From positions 62,001 to 126,000 of the forward strand of contig CANQNF010000003.1 of assembly GCA_947625125.1 (NCBI GenBank): DNA of 64,000 nt, given 5' to 3'. Shown one piece after another: positions 48,501 through 61,499 of the stretch. Both the position numbers and the translations under genes were made by a program. The notes under the pieces were generated by a model that was not told where the DNA came from, ran no database searches, and worked only from the letters and a program-made list of their open reading frames with translations. The stretch is from an uncultured Clostridia bacterium (lineage in GTDB: Bacteria; Bacillota; Clostridia; Oscillospirales; Ruminococcaceae). The stretch's first letter is position 1. The number at the start of each line of letters is the position of its first letter.

Positions 48501-50735
48501 TTATGCCATAGCCGGGGCGCCATCCTTGGGGTCTTCCTTGGCGTCGATGTTCGCCTCGCGCATTTTTGTGGTCTTACGCTGGGCCATGACCAGCTCATAG
48601 TAAACGCCCTTGTGCCTCATAAGCTTGTCGTGAGGACCCGTCTCGACAAGTCTTCCCTTGTCAAGAACTATAAGGCTGTCGGCGTTTGAAAGAGTGGACA
48701 GACGGTGAGCTATGGCGATGGTGGTCCTGCCTCGGCAGAGCTCCGCCAGACCCTCCTGTATCTGCCTCTCGGTCTCGGTGTCAAGGGAAGCCGTGGCCTC
48801 GTCAAGAATGATTATCTTCGGGTTGTGCAAAATCGCTCTTGCTATGGCGACTCTCTGGCGCTCGCCTCCCGAGAGGGTGTGGCCCTTGTTGCCGACTCGA
48901 GTGTTGTAGCCGTCCGGCAACTTGGTGATAAACTCGTGGCAGTGGGCTATCTTCGCGGCCTGCACGACCTCTTCAAACGTCGCGTCCGGCTTTGCGTAGG
49001 TGATATTTTCAAGCACAGTGCCCTCGAAGAGATACGTCTCCTGCAAGACTACGCCGACCTGAGAACGCAGGCTTTCCTGGGAAATTTTTCTTATATCCAC
49101 GCCGTCAATCGTGATTTTTCCCTGGGTCACGTCGTAAAGCCTTAAAATCAGGTTTATCATCGTGGATTTTCCTGCGCCCGAATGTCCGACTATGCCGTAC
49201 ATCTTGCCCTGTTCAAGCTTGATGTTGATGTCCTTTAAAACGGGATTGTAGACCTTGTATCCGAAGTAGACGTTGTCAAACTCGATATCGCCCTTGATGT
49301 CGAGGTCTACGCAGTCTTCGGTGTCGCGCACGTCGGTGTTCTCCTCCAAAATTTCAAAGACCTTTGAAGCGGAGACCGACACGTCGGCAAGCTGTCTCGG
49401 GAGCTGCAAAAGCCATCTGAGAGGCGTGTAGAGCATGCCCACATATGAAGTAAACCTTGAAAGCTCGCCCAGAGTGAACGAACCGAACGCCGGAAGCTTA
49501 GAAAGTATCATCATCGCTCCGAAATAGAGAACGAAGTAGTTTCCTATCGTGAGCAGGAAATCGCTCGCCGGCCATATCATGTACCAGACGACCTCGGCCT
49601 TGGATGAAGCCTTTGCAGCATTATAGGACGCCTTTGTGTACTTTTCTATCTCAAGCTCCTCGGTTCCGCATGTTTTGACTACTCTTATGCCGTCAAGAGC
49701 GTCGTGCAAAAGCTTAGAGTGGGCGTTTGAGAATCGCCAGGAACGGCCGTAGTACATCTGTATCGTGTTGTAGGCGCGCTTGATGATAAGCGCTACCACG
49801 GGTATCGGAAGTATCGCCATCAGCGAGAGCCGCCAGTCCATCGTGAACATGATTATCGCGACGATTATAAGCGAAAATATCCTTACTACGGCGTTTTTGC
49901 CGTTATCGGTAAGAAAGCTTTGCAGCTTGTTCGCGTCGTTCGATACGCGGTTGATGAGGTCGCCGGCCGTCTTTTTCGAGATGGACGACATCGACAGGTC
50001 GAGGGTTTTGGAGAAAACGTCCTGTCTTAAGTCCTGACCGAGATTTAACGAGACGTAAAAGCTCGCTTTCATGTTCGCCCAGTCAAGAAGCGTGTTTATG
50101 CCGATGAGGACAAACATCGATAAGCATAAAACCGCAAATCCCGCCCAGTTGGACTGATTTCTCGGCCATACATAGTCGTCAATCAGTATCTGGTTTATCA
50201 TCGGCGAGACAACGTTTAAAAGCTCGGCTATAACGGTGCAGAGTATAGCTATCGCAAACGCTCCCTTATAGGGCTTTAATCTCGCAAAAAGCTTGGAAAA
50301 CGTCTTGACCTTTGAGGCGCAGTATGGGCACTCGGTAAAGCTGTCAAGAGGCAGTCCGCACTTGGGGCACTTCGGCTCGTCGATGTCCGACTCCTCGACT
50401 AAAACGCCGGTCGTGAGATAGTGGTTTATTATCTTGCAGAGCTCCGCAAATGCGATAAAGCTGTCCTGAGTGAATGCGCAGAGGCATTTCTGAGAGCGGT
50501 CGCCTATCTTTCCGACCATCATCGAACAGCCGATAAGCTGCTCGCAGGCGTACTCCTCAAAATCGTCGAACTCGTATCTGTCACGCTCTTCGCCGTCTAT
50601 ATATACTATTATATTCTGTCTTGTGACCGAAAGGGTGCCGTCGACTTTCTTCGCCTTGCCGTACAGATTGAACGGCAGCGAGAACAGATACTCCGAAAGC
50701 TCGTGACCCTTTGGCGCTTTTAAAAGGAGATTCAA
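48501..50735 (-). CDS. ABC exporter (TMD-NBD) with N-terminal zinc ribbon, second subunit
   Basis: 744 residues. Residues 1-~115 are a soluble DUF1854-like extension. A zinc ribbon follows (C123-x2-C126, C136-x2-C139). A six-helix membrane domain spans ~155-440, and the nucleotide-binding domain ~490-725 has Walker A GHSGAGKST, signature LSGGERQRVAIARA, Walker B IIILDEATASLD with catalytic Glu, and the switch His in IAHRLSTLSNAD. Both ATP motifs are canonical. It is type IV exporter-like (multidrug/lipid/peptide class); the substrate is unknown. Together with the 835-residue partner and DUF1854 it resembles the 'cyanophycin-associated ABC + DUF1854' groups known in other bacteria, but no cyanophycin genes are here. 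Confidence 0.88.
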   Translation of the reverse strand: MNLLLKAPKGHELSEYLFSLPFNLYGKAKKVDGTLSVTRQNIIVYIDGEERDRYEFDDFEEYACEQLIGCSMMVGKIGDRSQKCLCAFTQDSFIAFAELCKIINHYLTTGVLVEESDIDEPKCPKCGLPLDSFTECPYCASKVKTFSKLFARLKPYKGAFAIAILCTVIAELLNVVSPMINQILIDDYVWPRNQSNWAGFAVLCLSMFVLIGINTLLDWANMKASFYVSLNLGQDLRQDVFSKTLDLSMSSISKKTAGDLINRVSNDANKLQSFLTDNGKNAVVRIFSLIIVAIIMFTMDWRLSLMAILPIPVVALIIKRAYNTIQMYYGRSWRFSNAHSKLLHDALDGIRVVKTCGTEELEIEKYTKASYNAAKASSKAEVVWYMIWPASDFLLTIGNYFVLYFGAMMILSKLPAFGSFTLGELSRFTSYVGMLYTPLRWLLQLPRQLADVSVSASKVFEILEENTDVRDTEDCVDLDIKGDIEFDNVYFGYKVYNPVLKDINIKLEQGKMYGIVGHSGAGKSTMINLILRLYDVTQGKITIDGVDIRKISQESLRSQVGVVLQETYLFEGTVLENITYAKPDATFEEVVQAAKIAHCHEFITKLPDGYNTRVGNKGHTLSGGERQRVAIARAILHNPKIIILDEATASLDTETERQIQEGLAELCRGRTTIAIAHRLSTLSNADSLIVLDKGRLVETGPHDKLMRHKGVYYELVMAQRKTTKMREANIDAKEDPKDGAPAMA

Positions 50736-50765: not shown

Positions 50766-51308
50766 TTAAACAAATATTTCCAAAATTGCAAGGCTCTTTT
50801 TATCAAGGGTATCGATATCGTTGCAGCAATACTTGTTGCCGTCGACGTCGACCGCGTAGAGAAGATGCTCGGTAAGCATCCTGAAATTAGAGTACCAGTC
50901 CCTTATGCAGATGGTCTTTCGGCCGCTTGTAGTGTCGATATCCACAAATATAAAGCCTCGGTTGTTGTCCTTGATGGAGTAGATCTTGGTGATCTCCGGC
51001 ATATAGTACTTGTACTCCAGATACTCGTCGATCATCTTGTACTGCTCCTCGGAAAGCTCTTTCATGTCCTTGATAACGCCGAGTTCCACGAATTCGTTCT
51101 CCTTGTTGTCGTAGGCCACGCTTATGTAGGTGGTCTTTGAGAAGAACGGCACAAGGCGCGTGAGACGGACGTTGAAATAGTCCTCGCCGTTGTATTTGAG
51201 CGATATGAAGTTTCCGCTGTCTTTATAGAATTCGAGCTTTGAGCAGTCAAGTATCTCAAGACGGTCTATCTCGAATTTTTCTTCCATCAGTATTTCTTCC
51301 TTGTCCAA
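50766..51308 (-). CDS. DUF1854 protein, TTG start
   Basis: 180 residues, acidic, no membrane segment. DUF1854 proteins lie beside ABC exporters and are otherwise uncharacterised; the name 'cyanophycin metabolism-associated' is given to some relatives. Visible features are F-F-S-K-T-T-Y-I-S-V-A and the C-terminal R-D-W-Y-S-N-F-R-M-L-T-E-H, then D-V-D-G-N-K-Y. The N-terminal extensions of both neighbouring exporters look related to this domain, so all three may pack together on the cytoplasmic side. TTG start at 51308, eight bases after AAGGAGG. It sits between the two exporters, 30 and 43 bases away. Confidence 0.85.
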   Translation of the reverse strand: MDKEEILMEEKFEIDRLEILDCSKLEFYKDSGNFISLKYNGEDYFNVRLTRLVPFFSKTTYISVAYDNKENEFVELGVIKDMKELSEEQYKMIDEYLEYKYYMPEITKIYSIKDNNRGFIFVDIDTTSGRKTICIRDWYSNFRMLTEHLLYAVDVDGNKYCCNDIDTLDKKSLAILEIFV

Positions 51309-51351: not shown

Positions 51352-53859
51352 TCAGCCGTCGTCCTCGATAAACTTGAGCGCGTCGGCCTGTAGGACATAA
51401 AGCTCGAAGTATTTGCCCTCAAGCGCCATGAGCTCGTCATGGGTGCCTATCTCCTTGAGCTCACCGTTTTCAATTACGCAGAGCATATCGGCGTCTCTTA
51501 GGGTGGAGAGGCGGTGAGCGATGGAGATTATCGTCCTGCCCTCTTTAAGGCCGTCGATGGCGACCTGAATTTTGCGCTCGGTCTTTGTATCCATGGAAGC
51601 CGTTGCCTCGTCAAGTATGAGAATATTCGGGTCCTGGATGATGGCTCTTGCTATTGATATCCTCTGGCGCTCGCCTCCCGAGAGACTGTGTCCGCCGCGG
51701 CCGATTTTCGTGTTATAGCCGTCGGGGAGCTTGGTTATGAATTCGTGAGCGTTAGCCGACTTCGCAGCCTCGATGACCTCTTCGATAGTAGCGTCCGGCC
51801 TTGCATAGCGGATGTTGTCTGCGACGGTGCCCATAAACAAATAGGTCTCCTGGGACACGATGCCGATATTCTTTCTAAGGTCCTTTATAGGTATCCTCTT
51901 TATCGGCACGCCGTCTATTGTAATTTCACCGCCGGTAACGTCGTAAAGCCTCGCGATGAGGTTGATAATCGTGGACTTTCCGGCGCCGGTCTTTCCGACG
52001 ATGCCGAACATCTGACCGCCCTCGACTTTAAAGCTGAGGTTGCGGAGAATCGGTCTGCCGGCCTCGTATTCAAAGCTTACGTTTTTGAATTCGATATCGC
52101 CTTTCATGTTCTCGATATGTATCGGGTCGTCGGGCTCGGCGACGGTAGGCTTCGCGTCCAATATCTCGAACATTCTCGAAGCGGCGTCTATGCACCTTGC
52201 CCAGCGGTCGCCTATCCACATGAAGAAGTCCATCGGTTCGTAAATCATGTCGGTATACCCTAAGAGGGTCATTATCGTGCCGTACTGGAATTTTCCCTTT
52301 ATTACAAGGAAGCATCCGAAGCAGAAGAGGCCGGTGGAAATGACCCTGTAGGCGCTCCACATGACGGGTTGGGTGGATGTTATCTTATTGTTTATCCTTG
52401 TGTTGACCTCGTAGGCAGTCTGGTTTTTCTTCTTGTAGCGGTTGCGCTCCTTGTCCTCCTTGGCAAACGACTTGACGACTCTTTGGCCGTTCATAACGTC
52501 GGAAAGGACCGAGTTTAAGCTTCTCATTGCCACGTCGAGCTTTCTGTAGAGCTTCCTCTGGGACTTGTAGAGGTAGTTATCCATCCAGAGGATGAAAGCG
52601 ATGACGATAATAATGGCGATGGAGATCATCGGGCTGAGGTGGAACATTATTGCTGCAACGCCGACGAGCTTGATTATATTCGCAACGCCGTATGGAACGA
52701 TGTCAACGAAGAAGTTGTAGACGTTCTGGCTGTCGCGGTCTACTCTTGACATCAACGAACCGGTCTGCTTTGAGGTGAAGAATGCCAAAGAGAGGTTCGA
52801 CATCGTCGAGTAGATTTTGGTGCGGAGGCGGTGAGTGACCATCGGGACGACCTTGGCCGTGATGACGCCGGAGACGACTCCCGCAAGACGGCTCAATAGG
52901 TTTACAATGACCATCAGGAATATGACCAAAAGCACCTGGCCGTAATACTTTCCTCCCTCGGCGATGACGTCGTCGTAGAGCATTTTTGTGCCGAACCACG
53001 GCGAAATGACCGCAAACAGGTTCGAGAGGAAAATCGTCAGGAATATGAGTCCGATCTCGACCTTGAAGTCCTTGAACATTCCGACGAGCCTGTCAAAAAT
53101 CGAGCGCTTGTCGATACACCTCGGGCAGACCGAGCGGTTGGGGTCGGGGTAGGGCTGGTGGCAGATTGGGCAGTTCAGCTCGACCGCGTCAAGCAAGCTG
53201 TCGTCGTTTTCGATTCCGCGGTGGATATTATTGAGTCTCTCGCAGAATTTCTCAAACTTGTCGGCATAGCCTAAAGAAAGTCTTGCGACGACGATATTGG
53301 GGCGGTTCTTGTCATAGCTTGAACCGAAACCGCCGTGGAAGTGTCCGCCGTGACCGGGAACATGGTATATCCCGTCGGGCGAGGGAGAAGGATTGAAGTC
53401 TCCGCCTCCGTGATTTGCATGCGCATAGAGGCCGCCCTCCATCGGAGGGATGGATACCCTCGGCGGAGGATAGCTCTTAGGCGTGTTCTTCGGTATCTTG
53501 TCGGGGTCGGGGAAGACCTCGACCTCTCCCTCGTTGAGCATGCCGAGAACGAGCCTTGCGGTATTCTGGTTGCGGTCAACATACGCAGTTTTGATATCGC
53601 TGATCTTGTATTCCGAGAAATCCTCAACATTATATTTAAGTATCTCGGGAATGGAAAAGCCTTTTTTCTTGGTCTCGACGTATTCCTCGTAGCCCGAGAT
53701 TATGTAAAGGGTCTCGGTGTTTATCACACAGTATACGTCGTAGTATCGGCCCTCGCCGTCAAGGTCTGCCTTAACGCAGTATAAAAGGCTTTCTACGTCG
53801 ACTCCGCGCTCGGCCAGGCGTTCAGATACTACGCCGGGAAGCGCGTCAAAATATTTCAT
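51352..53859 (-). CDS. ABC exporter (TMD-NBD) with N-terminal zinc ribbon and His-rich loop, first subunit
   Basis: 835 residues. Residues 1-~135 are a soluble N-terminal region. Next comes a Pro/Gly/His-rich stretch (residues ~131-180) with His at 148, 150, 166, 170, 173 and 175. A zinc ribbon follows (C230-x2-C233, C245-x2-C248), then six membrane helices (~265-555) and the NBD (~600-820) with GKTGAGKST, LSGGERQRISIARA, ILILDEATASMD and IAHRLSTLRDAD. All catalytic residues are kept, so if it pairs with the 744-residue protein both ATP sites are functional. The His-rich loop could bind metal. Start ATG with AAAGGAG. First structural gene after the leader-peptide attenuator. Confidence 0.88.
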   Translation of the reverse strand: MKYFDALPGVVSERLAERGVDVESLLYCVKADLDGEGRYYDVYCVINTETLYIISGYEEYVETKKKGFSIPEILKYNVEDFSEYKISDIKTAYVDRNQNTARLVLGMLNEGEVEVFPDPDKIPKNTPKSYPPPRVSIPPMEGGLYAHANHGGGDFNPSPSPDGIYHVPGHGGHFHGGFGSSYDKNRPNIVVARLSLGYADKFEKFCERLNNIHRGIENDDSLLDAVELNCPICHQPYPDPNRSVCPRCIDKRSIFDRLVGMFKDFKVEIGLIFLTIFLSNLFAVISPWFGTKMLYDDVIAEGGKYYGQVLLVIFLMVIVNLLSRLAGVVSGVITAKVVPMVTHRLRTKIYSTMSNLSLAFFTSKQTGSLMSRVDRDSQNVYNFFVDIVPYGVANIIKLVGVAAIMFHLSPMISIAIIIVIAFILWMDNYLYKSQRKLYRKLDVAMRSLNSVLSDVMNGQRVVKSFAKEDKERNRYKKKNQTAYEVNTRINNKITSTQPVMWSAYRVISTGLFCFGCFLVIKGKFQYGTIMTLLGYTDMIYEPMDFFMWIGDRWARCIDAASRMFEILDAKPTVAEPDDPIHIENMKGDIEFKNVSFEYEAGRPILRNLSFKVEGGQMFGIVGKTGAGKSTIINLIARLYDVTGGEITIDGVPIKRIPIKDLRKNIGIVSQETYLFMGTVADNIRYARPDATIEEVIEAAKSANAHEFITKLPDGYNTKIGRGGHSLSGGERQRISIARAIIQDPNILILDEATASMDTKTERKIQVAIDGLKEGRTIISIAHRLSTLRDADMLCVIENGELKEIGTHDELMALEGKYFELYVLQADALKFIEDDG

Positions 53860-53914
53860 TCAAGCATCTCCTTTCGGATTAGTTTCAGTGTCAGAAGATG
53901 TGCCGGTTTAATTA

Positions 53915-54019
53915 TCACCTCGTAAAATCTCGTTTTGGCGGCATATGGCAAAGCGTCTCGGGGCACAGGTACCGAGCACGCTGCCGGAAAAAATTGCCTG
54001 CCAAAATAAAAACGTCCAT
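53915..54019 (-). CDS. Possible second short ORF inside the leader region
   Basis: A 34-codon frame starting MDVFILAG, with GAGGTG five bases upstream of the ATG. The ATG lies in the 3' arm of the leader terminator. It has several Arg and two Cys but no further support. It may be a chance frame or a second element of the leader; both this and the first leader have 34 codons. Confidence 0.22.
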   Translation of the reverse strand: MDVFILAGNFFRQRARYLCPETLCHMPPKRDFTR

Positions 54020-54052
54020 GAAAGCACCTCGTCGAGCTGCTAATCATGGACG
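54003..54052 (-). terminator. Attenuator terminator overlapping the leader peptide stop
   Basis: On the minus strand CGTCCATGA pairs with TCATGGACG (plus coordinates 54044-54052 and 54013-54021), a 9-bp perfect stem. Weaker inner pairs AGCA/TGCT and CTC/GAG extend it, then TTTTTATTTT follows. The left arm is exactly the last two sense codons (Arg, Pro) plus the stop of the leader frame, so a ribosome halted at the end of the leader would block the hairpin. Confidence 0.85.
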
Positions 54053-54148
54053 GACCTTTGCATTTTCGTAGGAAAGAAGCCAGAATTCAGAGCTTAGACA
54101 CATTCGTATGAAATTTTTGGGTTTCAAACCGTATTCGCGGATCTTCAT
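54044..54148 (-). CDS. Leader peptide of the ABC exporter operon (34 residues)
   Basis: A 34-residue frame from the ATG at 54148, with an excellent ribosome site (AAAGGAG, eight bases). It is transcribed from a consensus promoter ~40 bases upstream. The peptide starts MKIREYGLKPKNF, has one Trp (W23) in S-S-E-F-W-L-L-S-Y and ends E-N-A-K-V-R-P-stop. It is too short to be an enzyme, and its last codons form the terminator arm. The layout (short peptide, terminator, then ABC exporter) is that of bmrB-bmrCD in Bacillus. The Arg-Pro-stop end recalls arrest peptides such as TnaC, but the sequences are not homologous. The inducer is unknown. Confidence 0.75.
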   Translation of the reverse strand: MKIREYGLKPKNFIRMCLSSEFWLLSYENAKVRP

Positions 54149-54193
54149 TTTGTGTGCTCCTTTCTTTAAGATATGATTTTTTAAATCTTTGAC

Positions 54194-54222
54194 ATTATAA
54201 GCCCATTCTGCTTTTTTGTCAA
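54194..54222 (-). promoter_or_regulatory. Consensus promoter of the attenuated ABC operon
   Basis: On the minus strand TTGACA (54217-54222), 17-base spacer and TATAAT (54194-54199): a perfect sigma-A consensus. Start of RNA is expected near 54187, giving a ~38-base leader before the peptide. Confidence 0.93.
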
Positions 54223-58553: not shown

Positions 58554-61499
58554 ATGCTAAAGCTTGAAAATATTGTCAAGGACTATGACGCAGGCGGTGA
58601 TAAGGTCAGAGCCCTTAACGGCATTTCAATAGAATTCAGGCAGTCGGAGTTCGTCGCGATTTTGGGACAATCGGGCTGCGGAAAAACCACGCTTTTGAAC
58701 ATCATAGGCGGCCTCGACCAGTACACCTCGGGAGACCTGTCCGTCAACCGAAAGAGCACCAAAAAATTCAAGGACTCGGATTGGGACTCCTACCGCAACC
58801 ACTCTGTAGGTTTCGTATTCCAGAGCTATAACCTCATCCCCCACCAGACAGTCCTGCAAAATGTCGAGCTCGCGCTGACCCTCTCGGGAGTCGGAAAGTC
58901 CGAACGCCGCAAACGCGCTAAGGAAGCCTTGGAGCGCGTGGGGCTTGGAGACCAGCTCAGAAAAAAGCCTAATCAGATGTCCGGCGGGCAGATGCAGAGA
59001 GTCGCCATAGCAAGGGCCTTGGTAAACGACCCCGAGATTCTTTTGGCGGATGAGCCGACCGGAGCCCTCGACTCCCAGACCTCGGTCCAGATAATGGATA
59101 TCCTCAAGGAGATCTCCAAGGATAAGCTTATTATAATGGTGACTCATAACCCCGAGCTTGCCGAAAAATATGCTTCAAGAACGGTAAGATTACTTGACGG
59201 CGAGATTCAAAACGACTCCGACCCCTACGACAGTTCGTCCGAAGCGCTTAATCGGACCGATGAGATACAAAGACCCGAAAAGTCAAGAAAGACCTCGATG
59301 TCGTTCTTTACGGCGCTATCGCTGTCGCTGAACAATCTTATGACCAAAAAGACAAGGACGATACTCACGGCGTTTGCGGGCTCGATCGGTATTATCGGCA
59401 TTGCGCTTATCCTCTCGGTGTCGACAGGCGTTCAGAATTACATCGACCGCGTTCAGGAGGACACCCTTTCGAGCTACCCGATAACGATAAACGCCCAGGA
59501 GGTCGATATGACGGAACTTATGACCTCGCTTCGAGACACCGCAAACGGCAGCTTCGAAAGCGGGCATGAGCTCGACGCGGTTTATGAGTCGAAGATCATG
59601 TACGATATGATGAACTCTATAAACTCGATGGACGCCCAGGAAAACAACCTCGTCAAATTCAAGGAATACCTTGAAAGCGGCGACGATATTAAACAGTATT
59701 CCTCGGCGATAAGCTATGTCTACAGCAATCCCATGTCGGTATACACAAAAAACAAGGACGGCGATATCGTAAAGTCGGATATTTTAGAGCTTATGAGCGG
59801 GATATATTCGATGATGGGATTTGAAACATCAAGCTCCGTTCTTTCCAATTTTATGCAGATAAACGCCTGGCAGGAGATGCTCGAGGGCATCGACGGAGAG
59901 CCTGTAAACGAGGTCCTCAAAGAGCAGAACGAACTCGTAGCAGGGCGCTGGCCGGAAAATTACGACGAGGTAGTAGTCGTCATCAGCGAGCGCAACGAGC
60001 TTTCGGATATGATGCTCTATGCTTTGGGTCTTAAGACGATGGACGAGATACAAGACGCCATGAAAGCCGCCGCAAACCAGGAGAAAATAGACACCTCCGA
60101 GTTCGGCAGCTGGAGCTACGATGATATAATGAACCTTGATTTCAGGGTCATTCTCGACTGCGACCGCTTCCAGAAATCCGGGGACGCATACACCGACGTG
60201 TCCGAGACCGACACGGGTCTTGAATACCTGTTTGATTCTGATAAGGCGATAAAATTGAAAGTCGTCGGCATCATCAAGCCGAGTGAAAACGCCGTCGCCA
60301 ACTTCTTAAACGGCGCTATCGCCTACCCGGCTTCCCTGACAAGGGAGATAATCAGGCGCACAAACGAGAGCGAAATAATCAAGGCCCAGGAGGAGAACCC
60401 CGATATAGACGTTATCTCGGGACTTAAATTCAAAGTCGAGGGCGAAGAGCCGGATGAAGCCGAAATCAAGGCTTCCGTCGACGAATGGATAAGCGCTCAG
60501 GGCGTTGCGGAAAAATCTGCGCTTTATACCGAGCTCGCTTCTATACCCACCGAGGAATATATTGCGGCGACAGTGGCACAGTACCGCCAGACCCTTGACG
60601 ACGCTTCTATAGACAATATGCTCATGCAGGCGTTCGTCTCGCAGACTCAGATGGACGAACAGACGGTGCTTGACTACATCAAAAACATGGACGCCGAAAC
60701 CAAAGAGGGCTATGTTCAGCAGGTACTGGCAGCGACTGTTACTCAGCAGTATGCCGAGGGAATACAGGCTCAGATGGGCGCCATGACTCAGGAACAGACC
60801 GCAGCGCTTCTTGATTCTGCCGAGATAACTCCAGAACAGTATCAGTATATTTTTGAGAATCATCTGCCGTCTACGCGCTCTGATTCTACTTATGAGGAAA
60901 ACATGGATAAGCTCGGACAAGTGGACCTCGATTCGCCGTCGTCCATCTACATCTACGCTTCAACGTTTGAAAACAAGGACTTCATCTCAGACGCCATCAC
61001 CGCATACAATGACGCGGTCGACGAGGCCGACCAGATAGTCTACACCGACTATGTGAAGCTTCTGATGAGCTCGGTAACGACGATAATTTCGGCGATAAGC
61101 TATGTTTTGATAGCGTTCGTCGCCATATCGCTCGTCGTCAGTTCCATCATGATAGGCATTATCACCTATATCTCTGTGCTCGAAAGAACAAAGGAGATCG
61201 GCATACTTCGTTCTGTCGGAGCCTCCAAAAAGGACGTTTCGAGGGTGTTCAACGCCGAGACCCTTATCGTGGGATTTGTGGCTGGCGCGCTCGGTATCGG
61301 CATAACGCTTCTGTTCCTCCTGCCGATAAACATGATACTTCATCATCTCACCGGCATAGACAATCTTTCGGCAACGCTTCCCGTAGCGGGAGCCGTGATA
61401 CTTGTGGTCATAAGCATGGCGCTTACGCTCATAGCGGGACTTATCCCCTCGGGAATAGCCGCCAAGAAAGACCCGGTCGAAGCTCTGAGGACCGAATAA
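58554..61499 (+). CDS. Fused ABC ATPase and FtsX-type permease
   Basis: 981 residues. The ATPase (1-~225, LolD/MacB class) has Walker A GQSGCGKTT, signature M-S-G-G-Q-M-Q-R, Walker B L-L-A-D-E-P-T-G-A-L-D and H in VTHNPEL. A permease follows: first membrane segment near ~275 (TAFAGSIGIIGIALILSV), a large outside region (~300-850) and three C-terminal segments from ~855 (IISAISYVLIAFVAISLVVS, VGFVAGALGIGITLLFLLP, then AGAVILVVISMALTLIAGLI). The conserved FtsX sequence LERTKEIGILRSVGASKKDV is clear. Such proteins move or control lipids, peptides or wall enzymes. The unusually large Glu/Gln-rich outside domain is distinctive. Ribosome site GGGGGAG. Confidence 0.9.
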   Translation: MLKLENIVKDYDAGGDKVRALNGISIEFRQSEFVAILGQSGCGKTTLLNIIGGLDQYTSGDLSVNRKSTKKFKDSDWDSYRNHSVGFVFQSYNLIPHQTVLQNVELALTLSGVGKSERRKRAKEALERVGLGDQLRKKPNQMSGGQMQRVAIARALVNDPEILLADEPTGALDSQTSVQIMDILKEISKDKLIIMVTHNPELAEKYASRTVRLLDGEIQNDSDPYDSSSEALNRTDEIQRPEKSRKTSMSFFTALSLSLNNLMTKKTRTILTAFAGSIGIIGIALILSVSTGVQNYIDRVQEDTLSSYPITINAQEVDMTELMTSLRDTANGSFESGHELDAVYESKIMYDMMNSINSMDAQENNLVKFKEYLESGDDIKQYSSAISYVYSNPMSVYTKNKDGDIVKSDILELMSGIYSMMGFETSSSVLSNFMQINAWQEMLEGIDGEPVNEVLKEQNELVAGRWPENYDEVVVVISERNELSDMMLYALGLKTMDEIQDAMKAAANQEKIDTSEFGSWSYDDIMNLDFRVILDCDRFQKSGDAYTDVSETDTGLEYLFDSDKAIKLKVVGIIKPSENAVANFLNGAIAYPASLTREIIRRTNESEIIKAQEENPDIDVISGLKFKVEGEEPDEAEIKASVDEWISAQGVAEKSALYTELASIPTEEYIAATVAQYRQTLDDASIDNMLMQAFVSQTQMDEQTVLDYIKNMDAETKEGYVQQVLAATVTQQYAEGIQAQMGAMTQEQTAALLDSAEITPEQYQYIFENHLPSTRSDSTYEENMDKLGQVDLDSPSSIYIYASTFENKDFISDAITAYNDAVDEADQIVYTDYVKLLMSSVTTIISAISYVLIAFVAISLVVSSIMIGIITYISVLERTKEIGILRSVGASKKDVSRVFNAETLIVGFVAGALGIGITLLFLLPINMILHHLTGIDNLSATLPVAGAVILVVISMALTLIAGLIPSGIAAKKDPVEALRTE

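Follow-up and report, generated by a model that had tools for sequence, protein, structure and literature searches.

Attenuators in which the translation of a short leader frame bears on transcription of the genes behind it have been described in several bacteria. Translation of the trp leader is restricted by pairing of its ribosome site, and the pyrBI attenuator of E. coli senses UTP via polymerase pausing; we know of no SD lock in the latter.

The closest described system is probably that of tlrB (yxjB) in B. subtilis, for which the available part of the report describes a ribosome that stalls at the end of the leader peptide and directly prevents an intrinsic terminator from being completed (PMC6851288). 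In bmrB, the leader of the B. subtilis bmrCD genes, an antiterminator and an anti-antiterminator have been predicted, and the terminator lies within the coding region (PMC4191407, in part). In E. coli, when a stop codon was brought closer to a terminator, from 28 to 5 bp upstream of it, termination efficiency fell from about 90% to less than 10%, an effect abolished without translation, as given in the accessible text of PMC4824070. Moreover, the uORFC-6-1 motif, found before hflX in Bacillales, is a candidate uORF with RNA structure downstream of the start codon and a conserved Arg-Leu-Arg (PMC8632094, in part).

The exporter operon and its leader

The stretch analysed, called the window here, comprises 64,000 nucleotides of an uncultured gut Clostridia bacterium of the Ruminococcaceae, related to Ruminococcus (assembly GCA_947625125.1, contig CANQNF010000003.1, positions 62,001 to 126,000). 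It holds a three-gene operon on the minus strand, in the order ABC1, DUF1854, ABC2, preceded by a leader region. In the direction of transcription the features are:

54194..54222, minus strand: sigma-A type promoter TTGACA-17-TATAAT, read from the sequence and conserved in relatives
54156..54164, minus strand: lock element 1, GAAAGGAGC, containing the leader SD (predicted fold)
54044..54148, minus strand: leader ORF, 34 codons and TGA
54101..54109, minus strand: core codons ATA-CGA-ATG (I14-R15-M16), in-frame ATACGAATG in all I-R-M leaders
54072..54080, minus strand: lock element 2, GCTTCTTTC, anti-SD in leader codons 23-26 (predicted fold and co-variation)
54013..54052, minus strand: intrinsic terminator hairpin, -23.1 kcal/mol
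54003..54012, minus strand: T-rich tail TTTTTATTTT, read from the sequence, directly 3' of the hairpin
51352..53859, minus strand: ABC1, ABC exporter half-molecule of 835 aa (Pfam PF00664 and PF00005)
50766..51308, minus strand: DUF1854 protein between both ABC genes (PF08909, 107.8 bits against a cut-off of 26.8)
48501..50735, minus strand: ABC2, second ABC exporter half-molecule, 744 aa (PF00664 and PF00005)

The preliminary description of this DNA had reported a perfect sigma-A promoter, a 34-codon leader with an ideal ribosome site, Arg-Pro-stop codons forming the 5' arm of a 9-bp terminator with a ten-base T-rich tail, and an exporter gene about 150 bases further on, and all these elements were recovered at agreeing coordinates. 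The -35 box TTGACA (54222-54217) and the -10 box TATAAT (54199-54194) are separated by 17 nt, and the start of the leader RNA is predicted near 54186. The frame follows the SD AAAGGAG, begins with ATG at 54148, ends with TGA at 54046-54044 and encodes the 34 residues MKIREYGLKPKNFIRMCLSSEFWLLSYENAKVRP. The terminator stem, CGTCCATGA...TCATGGACG, spans 54052-54013, and its 5' arm (54052-54044) corresponds exactly to codons 33 and 34 plus the stop (R33-P34-stop); 153 nt separate the hairpin from the ABC1 start at 53859. Rfam covariance models gave no match to the window at gathering score, the two chance-level matches in the leader region (best E 1.5) lying far below it.

The best NCBIfam model for ABC1, NF052233, scores 528 and 527 bits in the operon (ABC1, 528), below its cut-off of 880, and the DUF1854 protein reaches 46.8 bits with NF052234 (cut-off 150). 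These nearest models are labelled 'cyanophycin metabolism-associated', a link that was rejected in view of the scores and of a cyanophycin synthetase above cut-off in none of 31 genus genomes. No relative of the N-terminal part of ABC1 was found among viral contigs, nor any similar DNA in plasmids.

As in attenuators of the tlrB type, the leader ORF ends next to or inside the 5' arm of the terminator, in the window inside it. The tlrB peptide, MIIQFIRYR, has F-I-R-x-R; the I-R-M core here is [LFR]-I-R-M-[RCY], and the window has K-V-R before P34. However, the tlrB product is an rRNA methyltransferase, the leader of tlrB comprises 9 codons against 34 here, and the tlrB hairpin shuts the SD of that gene as well (PMC6851288, available part), whereas the lock described below lies within the leader frame and none was seen on the ABC1 SD. 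The likeness to bmrB-bmrCD that had been proposed holds for the leader ORF, the intrinsic terminator before two ABC exporter genes and the rare leader codons, but the window lacks an antiterminator, has a DUF1854 gene between the ABC genes and carries an SD lock, unlike bmrB as the accessible text presents it (PMC4191407). The missing antiterminator fits attenuation of the pyrBI type, in which the leader ORF likewise runs into the terminator and the ribosome itself suppresses termination (PMC4824070, in part). Leader translation would decide termination here as in trp-type amino-acid attenuators; in contrast to these, no regulatory amino-acid codons are common to all leaders, no 2:3 antiterminator exists in the window, and the terminator adjoins the stop codon (trp-type distance from the available part of PMC4824070). 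Finally, uORFC-6-1 concerns another gene and order, the likeness being that of a candidate uORF with structure 3' of its start codon (PMC8632094, in part).

Conservation of the layout among relatives

A perfect promoter is by itself ordinary in this genome, which has 134 TTGACA-17-TATAAT sites (1 in the reversed control). Among 29 of these examined (30 fetched, one absent from its locus), a short frame ending near a terminator lies downstream of two, the window's and that of L195. The combination of promoter, leader and terminator does exceed chance, since promoter, SD-led leader frame and terminator are kept before ABC1 in 24 of the 27 readable genus loci, a set that excludes L158 and L162, whose upstream regions are cut by contig ends. 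The preliminary description had staked its reading on conservation of the peptide or of the stem: the former is not conserved, and the terminator persists in those 24 loci. The leader promoter is taken to be the operon's own, since the remaining three loci (L153-L155) keep it before ABC1, at 49 nt and with a flank as in L156, without leader or terminator. In addition, none of the 31 gaps between terminator and ABC1 contains a promoter-like site (at least 10 of 12 consensus bases, -10 as TA...T, spacer 16-18).

In total, 31 leaders were collected, 24 from genus loci and 7 from further loci, and all stand directly before ABC1; the promoter matches all 12 consensus bases in 28 of them and has a 17-nt spacer in 30. 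At the order level, 11 of 83 evaluated DUF1854 loci (96 in all, 13 not evaluated) show the layout, including the same-family leaders L069 and L070. L073 was counted as leaderless, its detected 'leader' being the tail of an upstream frame that is also present in L074; the terminator arm of L161 was placed by hand (15 nt, the detector giving 24), and the ABC1 tree omits L153 and L156, whose ABC1 frames are too short.

The arm overlaps the stop codon in 3 leaders and begins 2-6 nt after it in 19, which gives 22 of 31 with overlap or at most 6 nt; in 8 its distance from the stop is 10-27 nt, too great for a ribosome at the stop codon to cover it well. The conserved layout, the mostly small distance, a gap in which no promoter was found and the lack of an antiterminator partner in the window support the earlier proposal of a leader-ORF attenuator in which a ribosome stationed at the end would cover the arm. 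Conservation of R33-P34-stop, whose co-variation with the arm it had named as a check, was not supported: the stop codon lies inside the arm solely in the window and in L146 and L152, both ending R-P-R-stop, and the R-P overlap is confined to these three species.

A proposed lock inside the leader frame

Lock elements 1 and 2 (54164-54156 and 54080-54072) are predicted to form 9 pairs, one of them G-U. In the window the duplex between SD and leader frame has -14.4 kcal/mol, with z -3.0 (p 0.01) against codon permutations and z -2.0 (p 0.056) against dinucleotide shuffles. Over 28 leaders (the 31 minus L149, L161 and L070) the mean z is -2.0, compared with +0.05 in 408 control genes, the lock being individually not significant in 14 of the 28. 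Duplexes of such absolute strength are not unusual: the control genes have a mean of -11.5 kcal/mol, and 28% of them attain -13.6.

The SD region and the leader-frame element would together act as a lock on leader translation, since they co-vary across 22 species: matched pairs beat mismatched ones, with none of 20,000 permutations as strong, and with p 4e-4 when the SD core is blanked. The 22 representatives were hand-chosen from the 31, and L147, L148 and L157 among them are close to each other; among the 22, the window's own pair ranks only 4th when scored by frame and 9th when scored by SD. The ABC1 SD does not co-vary with the leader frame (p 0.31). Furthermore, a similar lock occurs in another leader of the genus, which precedes a PF09818 gene (mean z -3.0 over 8 leaders, 6 of them with p<0.05), and the pattern of this second leader was matched once across 295 order genomes, in a genus member.

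A hairpin on the ABC1 SD (CATCTC/GGAGATG), suggestive by eye in one subclade, was discarded as not exceeding shuffles; pairing of the ABC1 SD with the gap gave a mean z of +0.18, with 1 of 27 below -1.65 and 4 gaps too short. The preliminary description mentioned neither the SD lock nor the I-R-M core.

Leader peptide and codons

The peptide itself is hardly conserved and weakly constrained. The peptide search suggested earlier, run with tblastn, was confident solely for the window's own genome among 60 genomes, most of the genus included; in 391 class genomes it gave five matches, all weak (E 0.05-0.08), of which four have internal stop codons. Many of the 60 genomes do carry a diverged leader. 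Plasmids and phages gave no match to the peptide, and no leader was recognised by similarity in the order-level operon loci, the best alignment score being 41 against 182 for self.

An I-R-M core is common to 11 leaders. It lies about 50 nt before the terminator arm, and a ribosome placed there leaves the terminator in the predicted fold. No run of codons for one amino acid occurs in any of the 31 peptides. Of the 31 leaders, 15 contain the macrolide-type motif [KR]-x-[KR], against an average of 13.5 after shuffling (sd 2.5); the motif is not enriched overall, with residues of this type near the C terminus in the window (K31-V32-R33) and in L146 and L152 (R-P-R).

Proposed mechanism and alternatives

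The reading that we hold to be somewhat probable is a ribosome-occlusion attenuator of the ABC/DUF1854/ABC operon, similar to that of tlrB, with a lock restricting leader translation to early-loading ribosomes. The strong promoter would produce the leader RNA, and a ribosome loading before lock element 2 emerges from the polymerase would translate the leader; once out, this element would close the leader SD, so that loading would have to be early to count. In the default state the terminator would form and the operon be off. If a ribosome were delayed at the stop or in roughly the last six codons while the terminator is synthesised, its footprint would lie over the 5' arm (one that extends over leader nt 79-109 includes all of the arm, which occupies nt 97-105), the hairpin could not close and the operon would be transcribed. 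The hold-up would most likely be slowed or drug-stalled translation, as with the Bacillus tlrB leader. We infer the stall, the default off state, induction by read-through, the inducer and the lock's purpose; it probably depends on ribosomes whether the exporter is produced.

A timing attenuator without a stall, similar to pyrBI/pyrE, seems rather doubtful. Promptness of ribosome loading and closeness to the polymerase would then decide arm coverage, with the lock as a loading deadline and the rare CGA codons setting speed. This would agree with a weakly constrained peptide whose stop-to-arm distance and lock are nevertheless kept, with the lack of a conserved antiterminator, and with CGA being the most enriched codon of the 31 leaders (33 observed, 2.7 expected), although this excess stems partly from composition and the leaders are mutually related. 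Against it, E. coli terminators that lie up to 100 bp into a coding region remain functional, coupling not yet being established (PMC4824070, in part), and the window's arm begins at leader nt 97; runaway transcription, in which polymerase outpaces ribosomes, as discussed with B. subtilis in the accessible text of PMC13323073, would oppose tight coupling if valid here. A classical attenuator of the bmrB or trp type, with the leader SD as 1, the ORF element as 2 and the terminator arm as 3, and a stalled ribosome permitting a 2:3 antiterminator, is improbable. A strong upstream arm partner does exist in L166, L167, L170 and L190 (z -1.9, -5.0, -2.7 and -2.5) and overlaps the anti-SD element in L170 and L190, but the best partner in the window has -3.7 kcal/mol (z +1.86), the mean z over the 28 leaders is -0.35 with 4 below -1.65, and no antiterminator is conserved among the leaders.

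It is more improbable still that the CGA core senses arginine or slow codons, stalling when charged tRNA-Arg is short, in an operon that would concern arginine-rich compounds. All 11 I-R-M leaders write ATA-CGA-ATG in frame, CGA making up 3.3% of Arg codons in the ABC1 genes of the same species, and both the CGA enrichment and the cyanophycin label of the nearest models point the same way; yet 4 of 32 conserved Arg columns of ABC1 also keep one codon across all 11 species, L167, L069 and L070 have no Arg in their leaders, the models' cut-offs and the synthetase search speak against cyanophycin, and the terminators of amino-acid attenuators are reported, in the available part of PMC4824070, to lie over 20 bp away from the leader gene, far beyond the distance in most leaders here. 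It is hardly credible that the leader region is an independent gene, for a small protein or a small RNA, with a separate terminator and only by chance before the operon: promoter, SD, ORF and terminator do make a complete unit, but it is directly before ABC1 in every case with no other promoter found in the gap, the promoter persists in L153-L155 without leader and terminator, and the peptide is under weak constraint.

Significance of the leader

The occlusion attenuator proposed here consists of parts of known kinds, and this version looks new. The claim that it was undescribed holds for this leader within the literature searched; the principle had already been described for B. subtilis tlrB (PMC6851288, available part). 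A broader idea, which we put forward as a speculation with the odds against it, is that of a sequence-free timer of ribosome loading, in which the anti-SD element would grant one brief interval for loading and the terminator would read the arrival and presence of the ribosome. Selection would keep the lock, the length, the slow codons and the stop position while the peptide drifts; within the genus, the module would precede genes that are not related to each other (the ABC operon, the PF09818 ATPase and perhaps, in a translational form, an MFS transporter), and the lineage would sense ribosome state without arrest peptides.

The usual signs of a leader-peptide attenuator are conservation of its peptide or a competing antiterminator, and the window's copy has neither. 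Peptide and Rfam searches missed this copy, which is recognised by co-variation between the leader's SD and its own frame. If it works as proposed, the SD-to-ORF test would be a general way of finding such switches, and uncultured gut Ruminococcaceae would control an exporter through the state of their ribosomes.

Organisation of the leader region

The leader, a short SD-led frame, lies between promoter and terminator upstream of the first ABC exporter gene (ABC1), and its elements in the window are the following.

Elements of the leader region (basis in brackets)
54222-54194, minus strand: promoter, 12/12 consensus (sequence)
54148-54044, minus strand: SD-led leader frame of 34 codons (sequence)
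Minus strand: intrinsic terminator of 9 bp, whose 5' arm CGTCCATGA consists of codons 33 and 34 and the stop (sequence, fold)
Minus strand: terminator tail TTTTTATTTT (sequence)

ABC1 starts 153 nt beyond the hairpin and opens an operon coding for an ABC exporter, a DUF1854 protein and a further ABC exporter. The structural statements of the preliminary description (promoter, SD, 34-codon frame and arm at the leader end) were all correct on recheck. A GGAGTGATNATNAAA-like stretch recurs between terminator and ABC1, as GAGGTGATAATTAAA in the window (53921-53907, minus strand) and at the equivalent place in clade A loci; it looks like a ribosome site that lacks a start codon. A nearby gene on the opposite strand (58554-61499, plus strand) encodes a 981-aa fused ABC ATPase/FtsX-type permease.

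Recurrence of the layout

Perfect promoters are common in the window's own genome (134 sites, as against 1 in the reversed control), so that the promoter alone proves little; a short SD-led frame ending by a terminator followed only 2 of the 29 examined, namely those of the window and of L195, another locus of this genome. The DUF1854 gene is present in 29 of the 31 genus genomes, and the genus sample comprised the own locus and all 28 others, with readable upstream DNA in 27 of the 29. The complete layout (promoter, an SD-led frame 25-43 codons long, terminator) was found in 24 of these 27, being absent from L153, L154 and L155. Another 21 loci, from Clostridia, Oscillospiraceae and Ruminococcus MAGs, many with names suggesting rabbit gut and rumen, were added; 15 proved to be repeats of genus contigs (upstream identity showed this for 11), and five of the 6 further loci, L189 being the exception, carried the layout. 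One of these six, L176, is identical in DNA to a contig from the genus member G020. Outside the genus, the layout occurred in 2 of 6 readable same-family loci (L069 and L070), giving a set of 31 leaders (24 genus, 5 further and 2 same-family); of the 83 DUF1854 loci evaluated at order level, 11 were positive with the same detector, L069 and L070 included. On an ABC1 tree of 38 rows, leader presence required 4 changes, against a shuffled mean of 7.5, and none of 500 shuffles was as low. The layout at this site thus exceeds chance.

The promoter is the operon's own. In L153-L155 it lies 49 nt before ABC1 (counted from the -10 end), with no leader or terminator between; in L156 the distance is 285 nt, and the promoter flank is nearly identical to theirs. 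Since L154 and L155 are nested among leader-bearing species in the ABC1 tree, leader loss is likelier than late gain, and in these three related species (L153-L155) operon expression without leader control would be expected. No recognisable second promoter was seen: none of the 31 terminator-ABC1 gaps held a promoter-like site of at least 10/12 (best 9; -10 taken as TA...T, with a spacer of 16-18). The ABC1 frames of L153 and L156 stop after 449 and 61 codons respectively, through gene disruption or a mistake in the assembly.

Pairing of the SD region with the leader frame

Many leaders have a predicted fold in which the SD is paired with a stretch of the leader's own frame (in the window, 54164-54156 with 54080-54072), a pairing referred to here as the lock. 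Over 28 leaders the duplex was stronger than under codon permutation (mean z -2.01, p<0.05 in 14/28) or dinucleotide shuffling (mean z -2.12, 15/28), while 408 ordinary genes gave a mean z of +0.05, with 5.9% below -1.65; plain duplex energy is less striking, the control mean being -11.5 kcal/mol, with 28% of controls at -13.6 or stronger. In a set of 22 representatives, an SD matched to its own leader frame was 2.97 kcal/mol better after centring than mismatched pairs (0/20,000 permutations as strong), an effect persisting with the SD core blanked (p 4e-4). No such matching was found between the ABC1 SD and the leader frame (p 0.31). The pairing thus co-varies although the sequences have diverged, which argues for selection on an RNA structure. 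The window's own lock gave p 0.01 by codon permutation and 0.056 by dinucleotide shuffling, and in the matching test its pair came 4th of 22 in one direction and 9th in the other.

Leader peptide and codon usage

Across the leaders, it is the stop position that is mostly kept, and not the peptide. Of the 31 stops, 3 overlap the arm, 19 lie 2-6 nt before it and 9 lie 8-27 nt before it. The peptide is not conserved, tblastn giving a confident match in the own genome only, and the R-P inside the arm is restricted to the window, L146 and L152. Between related leaders, amino-acid change was only slightly lower than expected at random (6 of the 12 pairs tested, which are not independent, gave p<0.05). 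An I-R-M core (I14-R15-M16 in the window) occurs in 11 leaders and is written ATA-CGA-ATG in all 11, even though CGA makes up just 3.3% of Arg codons across ABC1 in these species; as a yardstick, a single codon is used in 4/32 conserved Arg and 1/44 conserved Ile columns of the same genes. These leaders fall within one 13-leader clade of the ABC1 tree, in which L144 and L160 deviate. CGA is the most enriched codon over the 31 leaders (33 observed, 2.7 expected), an excess that may come in part from relatedness and from a base composition also favouring TTA (42 observed, 4.9 expected). The subclade L145, L147-L150, L156, L157 and L171 has another leader ending, mostly S-R-F-L-E-N-R-R-F-G-F-S-G-stop, in which CCCGATTCCTT is the anti-SD element, and it has in addition a small GATAC-N6-GTATC-like hairpin in mid-frame.

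Similar leaders elsewhere

A search with the core pattern led to another genus leader, upstream of a PF09818 ATPase gene, in 8 of 10 strong PF09818 loci (L239-L242 and L244-L247). Here the SD region is complementary to part of the leader itself (mean z -3.03, p<0.05 in 6/8), in slightly wider windows than for the ABC leaders and with three near-copies among the eight; the near-copies carry I-R-M-R-L-P-S, whose I-R-M-R core is like that of the ABC leader. On sequence grounds, this is a second putative leader attenuator of the same design. In L243, which shares genome and contig with L233, I-R-M-R is read in a different frame from that set by the SD-led start codon, and L238, the own genome's PF09818 locus, has no such leader in the 267 nt examined. 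Furthermore, L195 (C1:74535) combines a perfect promoter with a 28-codon leader followed by an MFS transporter gene; the leader end, GCGCCC, has two possible partners, the leader's own SD (z -2.7) and the SD region of the transporter gene, whose translation may thereby be attenuated.

Known systems

The nearest described system among those found is the B. subtilis tlrB leader, in which, according to an excerpt of PMC6851288, a ribosome stalled at a C-terminal R-Y-R keeps the terminator from being completed, and renewed translation of the leader is repressed by a hairpin. The tlrB peptide given there holds F-I-R-Y-R, to which the I-R-M-[RC] core is similar; this likeness offers a lead but does not amount to a test, since the core is distant from the arm and the leaders show no enrichment of the general [KR]-x-[KR] motif. 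The likeness to bmrB first put forward extends to target type and rare codons; bmrB, however, relies on a predicted antiterminator (PMC4191407, in part), and the window has none. Rfam gave no match for the leader region of the window. In one literature collection no paper joined DUF1854 and ABC transporter, no title among the matches listed concerned such a leader in Ruminococcus, and "ruminococc" was absent from the best 10 of 12 in one leader-attenuator search.

Proposed mechanism

An antiterminator in the window was considered and rejected, the arm having no upstream partner (z +1.86). Nor is one conserved: over 28 leaders the mean z was -0.35, with values below -1.65 in L166, L167, L170 and L190 only. 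With a ribosome placed on the I-R-M core the terminator is still present in the fold; a footprint spanning leader nt 79-109 takes in the arm completely. Because the arm lacks a partner and this footprint covers it, occlusion at the leader's end is, for the window, the simplest mechanism. Its main rival is a timer that works without ribosome stall. In E. coli, as an excerpt of PMC4824070 reports, shifting a stop codon from 28 to 5 bp ahead of a terminator reduced termination efficiency from ~90% to <10%, and removing translation abolished the effect of distance.

Under occlusion, a ribosome held at the leader end would allow read-through into the operon, the lock would confine the decision to an early ribosome, and translation inhibitors would be the signal. 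The design inverts that of the amino-acid type attenuator, and the operon should be off by default.
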